Of a stretch of 59,238 nt of DNA, positions 7,009 to 19,800 are shown one piece after another (positions within the stretch are counted from its first letter, which is position 1; each line of letters opens with the position of its first letter). The notes under the pieces are model-generated. The model saw nothing but the letters and a program-made list of their open reading frames with translations, had not been told where the DNA came from and made no database searches. The stretch is from Gemmataceae bacterium (GTDB lineage: Bacteria; Planctomycetota; Planctomycetia; Gemmatales; Gemmataceae). Made by a program: the position numbers and the translations under genes. The stretch lies in NCBI GenBank assembly GCA_026419115.1, contig JAOAAA010000001.1:46365-105602 (forward strand), given 5' to 3'.

Positions 7009-7082
7009 GGACGCATAGCTCAGCTGGCTAGAGTACCAGTATGACACACTGGGGGTCACAGGTTCAAGTCCTGTTGCGTCCA
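7009..7082 (+). tRNA. tRNA-Val (anticodon GAC)
   Basis: A 74-nt cloverleaf. Acceptor GGACGCA pairs with TGCGTCC (7075-7081), discriminator A at 7082. D-arm GCTC/GAGT. Anticodon stem CCAGT/ACTGG encloses the loop ATGACAC, which gives anticodon GAC and reads GUC valine codons. T-arm ACAGG-TTCAAGT-CCTGT. The variable loop is short. The 3' CCA is not encoded (CTT follows). A sigma70-like promoter precedes it and a strong terminator follows, so it is a single-gene transcript. The purine-poor 32/38 pair (A/C) is slightly unusual but the fold is sound. Confidence 0.95.
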
Positions 7083-7113: not shown

Positions 7114-7259
7114 ATGCCCCTTCACCTTACTCTTTCTCCCTCATGAAAATGGAAAATGGTGTGAATGGAGAATTGAGAGCGGAGAGCAAAATGAAGGCGA
7201 GACTAACACTCACGTCCTAGGGTTCTCCCGTCAACATGTCAACACGTCAACACGTCAAC

Positions 7260-7304
7260 CGCTAGAGTTAGTGAAGGTCGCTCCCTTGCGGTCGCGGCTC
7301 ATCG
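7260..7304. repeat. REP-like module, copy 1
   Basis: Starts GCTAGAGTTAGTGAAGGTCG and continues to a CGGCTCATC end. Copy 2 at 7483-7527 is the same module with a few substitutions. The core (CTCCCTTGCGGTCGCGG) contains imperfect palindromic halves. Such modules occur between the 8-bp arrays. Confidence 0.7.
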
Positions 7305-7365
7305 ATCGGAAGGGGATGCGTCAACATGTCAACATGTCAACATGAGAATCGAATCGCCAAGTGAG

Positions 7366-7385
7366 CCGAGGACGCCAGTCCTCGG
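7366..7385. repeat. Perfect 8-bp hairpin module
   Basis: CCGAGGAC, loop GCCA, GTCCTCGG. It lies in a segment (7361-7401) of the kind scattered between genes in Gemmata-like genomes, as I recall; no T-run follows. Confidence 0.65.
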
Positions 7386-7482
7386 GTGCTGCACGGAAGG
7401 GTTCAACCACGTCAACATGTCAACACGTCAACATGTCAACATTGTCAACACGTCAACATTGTCATCACGTAAACACGTCAAC

Positions 7483-16873: not shown

Positions 16874-19800
16874 ATGTCTCTTCCTAAATCCTCACCCGAT
16901 CCGAATACCTCGGTTGATCCAAACCGCACTCTCGATCAACCGACATTACCCAGCCAATCCAAGTTAATCGATATTTCTCAGCCGATACCACCGAGCCAAA
17001 CCCAGATGCTCGATATTTCTCAGCCGATACCACCGAGCCAAACCCAGATGCTCGATATTTCTAAGCCGGAACACCGGACTGCTGTCACTCAGACCAATTT
17101 ACCGAAACCGCCTCCCGAGATTCCCACCATTCCCGGTTACCGCATCACCGCCGAGATCGCTCGGGGGGGAATGGGCTGCGTTTATGCCGGTTTCGATCTC
17201 TCACTCGATCGCGAAGTAGCCATTAAAACTTTGCTCCCGAATGCCAATGCCGAGCGGTTCGTGACCGAAGCCAAGATCACCGCTCGCTTGCCGCACCCCA
17301 ACATTCCGCCCGTTCATGCCTTGGGAAGTGTCGAGGGCACACCGTGGCTGGCGATGAAACTAGTGCATGGGCGGACTTTGGCCGAATTACTCAAACAACG
17401 CCATCATCCTAAAGACGATCTCCCTCGTTTTCTGCTTATCTTCGAGCAGATCGCTCAAGCGGTTGGCTTTGCTCATAGTCGTGGCATCATCCACCGCGAC
17501 CTCAAGCCGATGAACGTGATGGTCGGCGAATTCGGTGAAGTCCAAGTGATGGACTGGGGGCTGGCGAAAGAACTTCCGAGCCGCGACCGCCAAGAAACGG
17601 AATCTCCCTCACCCCTTCCCCCCTCTCCCGCTGGGAGAGGGGAAGTGGGGATTCACGCCCTCAGAAACAACGTTGATGTGAACCCCTCTCCCGCTGGGAG
17701 AGGGGAAGGGGGTGAGGGAGCCGAGCACACCGCAGCAGGAACGGTCATGGGGACGCCGGGTTACATGGCTCCGGAACAGGCGCGGGGGCAAATCGTTGAT
17801 GCTCGTGCTGATGTGTTTGCCTTGGGTTCGGTGCTGGCGGCGATTCTGACGGGTCGGCCGGCATTCGTGGGGGATACCGTACGCGAAACGATCGCGAAGG
17901 CAGCTCAGGCGGACCTCGCCGAAGTTCGGGAGCGATTGGCCTACTGCGGGGCGGATGCCGAGTTGCTTGCGGTGGCGTTCCGTTGCTTGTCCGCGAATCC
18001 CGAGGAACGATATGCCGATGGCCGCGAAGTGGCCTCAGCGATTGCGGCGTACCGAGCCGATGTCGAAGCACGCTTACGGCAAGCCGAGACGGAAAAGGCT
18101 CAGTCCGAGACGCGAGCGGTGGAGCAAGCCAAGCGTCGGCGTGTGGTGCAGTGGGCGGCTGGGGGGATCGCCGTGGTTCTGTTGGCCGGCTTGGGGATCA
18201 GCTTATGGCAGATGAAACGTGCCAACGCCGAACGCGACGCCAAAGAAATCGCTCGGCAGGCTGAAGCCGAGGCCGCCGAAAATGAACGACTCGCGAATCA
18301 GAAGGAGCAAGCTGCCCGAGTGGCTGCGGAAAAGCGGTTGAAACAAGTTGGACAGGGTGTCGAGTTAATCGCAAAAATTTTAAGAGAAATCAACCCAAAC
18401 AGCGAAGATCCAAGTCAACCGGCTTTGTACGATCGACTCCGAATTCGTGCCTTGGAAGCGGCTCGCAGCCTCGATGAAGATGCAGTCGCCGATTCATCAG
18501 CCACCGCGAGGTTACGAGTTATCCTTGGGCAAACTTTGCTATCATTGGGAGAAACGAGTGCTGCCATCGAGCAACTCGAAAAAGCCGAACAAGCTCGCAT
18601 CACCTTGGCTAACGACACAAATGATGAATTCATGGCTGTTGGGGCGCTCAATGCTGCTGAGCAACTTGGCCGAGCTTACGCCATAGCGGGTCGATATCCC
18701 GAGGCGATTGCACGCTTGACCTTGGTCGTCGAGGCAAAACGCAAATCGCTTGGCCCAGATGATCCGCTCACACACAAAGCCATGACGGAACTGGGCCATG
18801 CTGCATTAGCCAACGGAATGACCAAGGATGCCGTGACTCTCTTCGAGCATGTCTACCAATCCAAGCTAGGAACCAAAGAAACGGATTCTGTGAATCTTTC
18901 GATGGCGGCGATCAACCTTGCCTCTGCGAGACTTATCGCGGGCGATGTCACAAACACGACGCAGCTGCTCGAAGAGTCACGACAAAAGTTCGAAGCGAAA
19001 CTTGGTTCCGAACATGTGCAAACGCTGCAAATCCTCATGGGGCTAGGTCGATGCTATCATCGAGAACGCCGGTTTGCGGAAGCAATCGCTCTGTTTGAAA
19101 AAGTCCTCGAGGTACGCAAGGCAAAACTCGGTGAGGATCACCCTGAGACATTGATGACCATGGCGGACTTGGCGCAAAGTTATGATTCGGCGGGACGAAA
19201 GAAGGAGGCCGTCGAACTTGGGGAACAAGTCGTCGCTCGGCGAACGGTGAAACTTGGCTCGGAACATGTTGATACCCTTAATTCAAAAAGCAATTTAGCA
19301 ACGACCTATCAACGGCTGGGAAGATACGCGGATTCAGCAAAGCTTGATGAGGAGGTGCTGGCTGTTCGCCAAAAGAAACTGGGGGCAAATCATCCGGATA
19401 CCCTCTTGTCCATCAACAATCTAGCCACAGCCTTGAGTCAGTTAAAACGGTATGAAGAGTCAATTAGACTTTACGAGGAAGCGTACCCACGCATGGTGAA
19501 GGAAATGGGGGCGGATCATCCCCATGCTATGCAAATGCTGCACAACTTGGCAGACCTTCAACTTGAAGCAGGCCAACTCGAGCAGGCCATCGTGACTTTG
19601 GAGAAGGTACGAGAAGCTCGAATTGGCAAATTGGGTATTGATTCCCTTGATACCGCTCACACGAGCTTCAGTCTCGCCAAAGCACTCCATCAGAAGAAAA
19701 AATATCTTCAGGCGGTGGAACTTGCAGAGCAGGTCTATGAAGTCAGAAGAAAAACATTGGGCGACACTCACGGGAGTACGCTCACAGCACTCGCCAAGAT

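Follow-up and report, generated by a model that had tools for sequence, protein, structure and literature searches.

The window (the whole stretch of DNA analysed, 59,238 nucleotides, positions 46365-105602 of contig C111 in a draft assembly we call G000; 4.26 Mb, 323 contigs, 92% complete) contains a kinase gene whose activation segment encloses a long translated palindrome (Table 1). Judged by its gene content, the genome looks like that of a planctomycete of the Gemmata type. Pfam matches the gene product to Pkinase (E 8e-35) as well as to TPR_12 and TPR_10, and the closest solved structures found by sequence search are of PknB type (PDB 3orm, 1mru; E 7e-38). The Gly-rich loop, VAIK Lys, HRD..N, DWG and APE are all present in the translation, and by its sequence the protein is a Hanks-type Ser/Thr kinase with intact catalytic motifs. 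The region encoding its N-terminus (16968-17068) contains an in-frame 42-bp tandem repeat (2.4 copies, 98% identical) specifying a 14-residue peptide. Elsewhere in the window, a further open frame of 592 aa on the + strand, from 54811 onward, matches kinase regions of relatives, and an 8-bp unit (GTCAACAT/CG) forms arrays at 7229-7482, after a tRNA gene (7009-7082).

Table 1. Features of the kinase gene and of the palindromic repeats inside it (window positions)
Feature	Position	Strand	Basis
Hanks-type Ser/Thr kinase with C-terminal TPR repeats, 1383 aa	16874-21025	+	ORF, Pfam, PDB match
DWG motif, residues 227-229, start of activation segment	17552-17560	+	translation; alignment to PknB DFG
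Diverged half-unit (20/23) of second palindrome family GAGCCGCGACCGCCAGGGAGCGG, peptide SRDRQ	17578-17600	+	family-wide repeat
REP-like inverted doublet, translated in frame, residues ~245-282	17604-17720	+	inverted and direct repeats, fold, frames
First hairpin, CCCCTCTCCCGCTGGGAGAGGGG	17620-17642	+	repeat analysis
Spacer between hairpins, unique sequence, missing from G043 form	17650-17682	+	repeat analysis, G043 comparison
Second hairpin, same sequence as first; with 17706-17716, the part in common with G043	17683-17705	+	repeat analysis
APE motif, residues 299-301, end of activation segment	17768-17776	+	translation

A palindromic doublet in the activation segment

The preliminary description had recognised an inverted repeat lying in frame between DWG and APE, within a span of 75 residues (DWG 227 to APE 301), and repeats, fold and translation all confirm it; the size of 113 bp given there becomes 117 bp, the element being a doublet of one hairpin unit. 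Its outer arms (17604-17622 and 17702-17720) are 89% complementary, and its two 23-bp hairpins double as direct repeats (30 nt, 97%) exactly 63 bp, or 21 codons, apart. With its arm the hairpin unit measures ~36 bp, in the size range of REP palindromic units (20-40 bp), and the two units are arranged as in a REPIN or BIME, in inverted orientation about a short spacer with their arms outward. The predicted RNA fold of the element is much more stable than those of shuffled sequences (-81 kcal/mol vs -54 +/- 4; z -6.6; 0/200 shuffles). Only the kinase gene's own frame, among the six, is stop-free across the element; it stays open from end to end within a conserved kinase, and we take the element to be translated as part of the enzyme. 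Neither end carries the GTAG or CGTC tag of the superfamilies in PMC3733652, and Rfam has no family at the element, its sole match in the window being a tRNA elsewhere.

Aligned with PknB, the kinase shares the catalytic motifs and the overall domain but has DWG for DFG and ~43 extra residues (239-281) in the activation loop, directly before the Thr cluster: residues to 238 pair up to G170 of PknB, and from 282 pairing resumes at G170. The claim that the segment had been widened holds relative to the median of 53 related kinases (66 residues from DWG to GTPxYMAPE here vs 49), but the same distance ranges from 21 to 81 among them, and in three of the 53 the DWG-to-GTP linker equals or exceeds the 66 residues seen here. 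Because linker length varies so widely, the activation linker is best understood as an old hypervariable segment, and its variability among relatives also suggests that the loop is flexible; structure prediction from the single sequence returned a mean pLDDT of 46, too low to interpret. It had been proposed that a non-palindromic insert of similar length in orthologues would mark an ancient kinase segment. Long linkers that are not palindromic do occur at the same place in relatives, as that proposal anticipated, but their sequences are unrelated to the element, and comparison indicates that the palindrome is an addition to a loop that is itself old and variable.

Upstream the element adjoins a half-unit of a second palindrome, GAGCCGCGACCGCCAGGGAGCGG, matched here at 20/23, exactly (23/23) in the kinase of genome G043 and at 19/23 in that of G002. 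A degenerate pattern of this sequence matches 1604 times, spread over 52 of 95 family genomes, as against 0 for a reversed-pattern control, and many of the matches have an inverted partner 10-29 bp off, i.e. they form a hairpin element. Peptides of this second family (SRDREGA / SRERERPE) lie in the activation linker of six kinases from four genomes (L318-L323; kinases of G043 on contigs C18 and C31, and of G053, G071 and G073), with the palindrome twice in tandem in the C31 kinase. Uniform placement would give roughly 0.5 such kinases, calculated from ~130 kinase candidates per genome and 31 allowed spacings; this is a rough estimate rather than a formal test and the six include paralogues, and the excess in activation linkers is suggestive. 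The same family or a close variant also occupies the loop before HRD (alphaD-alphaE) in the C18 kinase of G043 and in kinases of G073 and G053. These positions suggest that activation loops of the family's kinases tolerate or collect palindromic repeats of this kind.

Distribution of the hairpin and its counterpart in another genus

REP elements had been thought mobile in this genome, and a search for further copies had been recommended. We found none in G000, a 92% complete draft, using either a 146-bp query or the hairpin pattern, leaving one copy in the 4.26-Mb assembly; a looser search allowing 3 mismatches returned 27 matches vs 13 in a reversed-pattern control, mostly near chance. Nor does G000 contain a match to PF01797 (Y1, RAYT-type transposase), which is matched in 79 of 95 family genomes. 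The high copy number and the RAYT or Y1 association typical of REPs are thus missing from G000, and copies are numerous only in relatives: the hairpin occurs in 58 of the 95 genomes, reaching 518 in one, and its counts rise with those of Y1 (Spearman 0.49, n = 95, kinship uncorrected). In G050 the hairpins are paired, 102-105 bp apart. The original view of the element as REP-type and translated within an activation segment is upheld, and relatives have many dispersed hairpins of this kind; the proposed mobility in G000 is not supported by this draft assembly. G043 runs against the trend, with 38 hairpins and 0 PF01797 matches.

Outside the family, the arm-plus-hairpin unit was found, exact to the pattern (L079-L192), in Chloroflexi, Xanthomonadaceae, other proteobacteria and a cyanobacterium, and is a hairpin repeat common to several phyla. 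BLAST matches elsewhere in the phylum span essentially one unit rather than the doublet and its spacer. In a 1006-aa open frame of a related genome (L051, whole locus, minus strand), a translated hairpin unit, SPSPQQGEGGERSEPGEG, separates the domains for ketoacyl synthase and acyltransferase; an 848-aa ORF of G024 with a translated unit has no Pfam match and is a weak example.

A pattern search for hairpin words near GTPxYM across the 95 family genomes left G000 and G043 as the sole genuine cases. Candidates in G055, G011 and G010 were rejected as further activation-loop cases, having matched only via a GAGAGG word in other contexts. The G043 kinase (C18; L218) comes from another genus, is ~62% identical to the kinase of the window, and carries a single-hairpin form of the element in frame at the same nucleotide position, in the order GAGCCGCGACCGCCA, 13 nt, CCCTCACTTCACCCCTCTCCCGCAGGGAGAGGGGAAGGGGGTGAGAG, TGCCGAGCACACCGC, i.e. 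one hairpin with both arms. Besides small left-arm differences, the G000 element is longer by the 63-bp inter-hairpin interval. The right unit (17683-17705 plus 17706-17716) is the same in both at 33 of 34 nt, the right junction GCCGAGCACACCGC is identical, and the left junction is the same SRDR repeat at an equal distance. At residues identical between the two proteins, codons match at 12 of 13 positions in the shared unit vs 102 of 226 (45%) elsewhere in the domain (Fisher p 9e-4).

As in G000, the kinase unit of G043 combines a loop of 3 nt with the tail AAGGGGG. This tail is found in 0/16 of the other G043 units read, a sample of those with an arm, most of which have TTAGGGG or similar and other loops. 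The kinase unit is therefore unlikely to derive from the sampled G043 pool, which makes an origin in common with the G000 unit, whether the segment was inherited or transferred, the better reading. Because outward-armed doublets occur among the dispersed G043 copies (e.g. L303), the doublet probably came first, with the G043 form derived from it by a deletion between direct repeats.

The two kinases belong to a clade of seven (99 SH-aLRT in one tree, 96/94 in another), within which they are not sisters, their monophyly being neither supported nor rejected (AU p 0.175). Comparison with orthologues, which had been suggested as a check on the insertion, gave a divided answer: five of the six closest relatives lack the element, and the sixth has the single-hairpin form. 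No hairpin is present at the site in the linkers of the five other clade members (G005, G008, G093, G041, G002), and by locus the element is absent from L005, L007, L026, L215 and L216, with the single unit in L218. The G000 kinase locus showed no synteny with the G043, G005, G093 and G008 loci in the stretches compared. Most likely, to judge from these comparisons, the element predates the split between G000 and G043 or was transferred between their lineages; a form at the same nucleotide in a different genus strongly weakens the proposal that the insertion is recent.

Origin of the element

We favour, with a probability of about 0.72, the view that the element is an old REP-like inverted doublet in a tolerant activation-segment loop, kept since the distant past rather than recently acquired by G000. 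A doublet of REPIN/BIME type would have entered, long ago, the DNA encoding an exposed hypervariable part of a PknB-like kinase-TPR gene. It would have survived by striking the only stop-free frame, which was then kept, at a place where linkers were already long and variable and the kinase motifs were spared. Purifying selection would leave insertions only in harmless places, and so repeats would come to sit in variable linkers. The single-hairpin form of G043 would have arisen by loss of 63 bp (21 codons) through recombination or slippage between the hairpins.

Two independent insertions at the same nucleotide, one in each lineage, with the SRDR palindrome or the loop as a preferred target, form the strongest alternative and one that we regard as improbable. 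Such a history would accommodate the separate positions of the two kinases in the tree and a DNA identity in the unit far above the gene background, and it has a parallel in Xanthomonas, for which PMC3733652 describes REPs in recB of two species at nearly the same position. It requires a donor, however, and G000 has no other copy to serve as one, while the sampled G043 units are of a different subtype; the match of the junctions on both sides also argues against it.

Slightly less probable again is that the palindrome has been selected as a nucleic-acid structure, either a hairpin in the mRNA at which translation would pause between the lobes of the kinase or a cruciform in the DNA, the peptide being incidental. 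The retention of synonymous choices in the unit is what such selection would leave, and the fold is extremely stable in G000, while the G043 form also makes a stable hairpin. But part of the pairing is lost from the G043 left arm, the site lacks a hairpin unit in five of six close relatives, and two sequences are too few for covariation. That an active REP system inserted the element recently in G000 we consider very unlikely: the 97-100% identity of the two hairpins and the counts of up to 518 hairpins in relatives are what it would predict, but the solitary copy and the failure to find a Y1 transposase gene in G000 weigh against it and the single unit in another genus weakens it strongly. 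That the element is an artefact of a draft MAG is scarcely credible, for although inverted repeats are prone to mis-assembly and the assembly is fragmented and incomplete, the frame is open throughout, the site is interior to a 105-kb contig, and a single-unit form occurs independently at the same site in another genome.

An old and long-retained doublet, the reading we prefer, has consequences of its own. Because the G000 and G043 kinases are not sisters, one has to allow for several losses or for a transfer of the segment, and we infer either an origin in common with the G043 unit or such a transfer, with the doublet as the older state relative to the single hairpin. Because the DNA identity of the unit exceeds what age alone would leave, some constraint on the palindrome or a later exchange is also needed. 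The effect of the element on the protein is probably near-neutral, and a modest, hypothetical effect through a longer Pro/Gly/Arg-rich loop or a very stable mRNA hairpin is possible.

Relation to known translated repeats and significance

Elements of this kind are already known, as Rickettsia RPEs and 'REP-decorated' proteins; what is new is the element and its site in the protein. PMC3733652 covers REPs that lie within genes and specify 20-30 residues or more, together with the in-frame RPEs of Rickettsia, and also cites an old repeat insertion in the R. conorii guanylate kinase (Abergel et al. 2006). As in the RPEs of that account, a palindromic repeat is translated in frame in an apparently intact protein and an old insertion has long been kept. 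The sequences are unrelated, however, and RPEs are found in many genes of one genome where we find one copy, here in the activation loop of a Hanks kinase. The 'REP-decorated' proteins of the same source, which include examples from Opitutus terrae of the PVC superphylum, likewise contain singlets or doublets within ORFs, but these add about 20-30 residues, vs ~38 here, and the tags described there are lacking from our element. The main text of PMC3733652 makes no mention of a kinase activation segment as a REP site.

With the REPIN/BIME doublets mobilised by RAYT, as presented in PMC3116915, PMC2817692 and PMC8266576, the element shares two inverted hairpins and a short spacer, and relatives of G000 have numerous copies, frequently spaced as regular pairs, whose number is higher where Y1 is more abundant; G000 differs in its single copy and lack of a Y1 gene, and the likeness is one of layout. 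Because it has no GTAG or CGTC tag and is unrepeated in its own genome, we do not assign the element to a REP family in the strict sense, and speak of it as behaving like a translated REP doublet only as a working likeness.

A broader proposal, which we offer tentatively and think less likely to be right than wrong, is that at least two unrelated palindrome families (the CCTCTCCC/GGGAGAGG hairpin and SRDREGA/SRERERPE) recurrently seed the activation segment and the alphaD-alphaE loop of kinases in this bacterial family, so that selfish DNA would continually supply an expanded set of kinases with fresh regulatory loop sequence, with the palindromes partly kept at the nucleic-acid level. The element described here is a clear cross-genus case of a palindromic repeat that has turned into part of the control loop of a signalling enzyme and been retained. 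If repeat-derived peptides do populate the activation and alphaD-alphaE loops of several kinases, they would provide a testable route by which kinase regulation could diversify, in a group with very many kinases.
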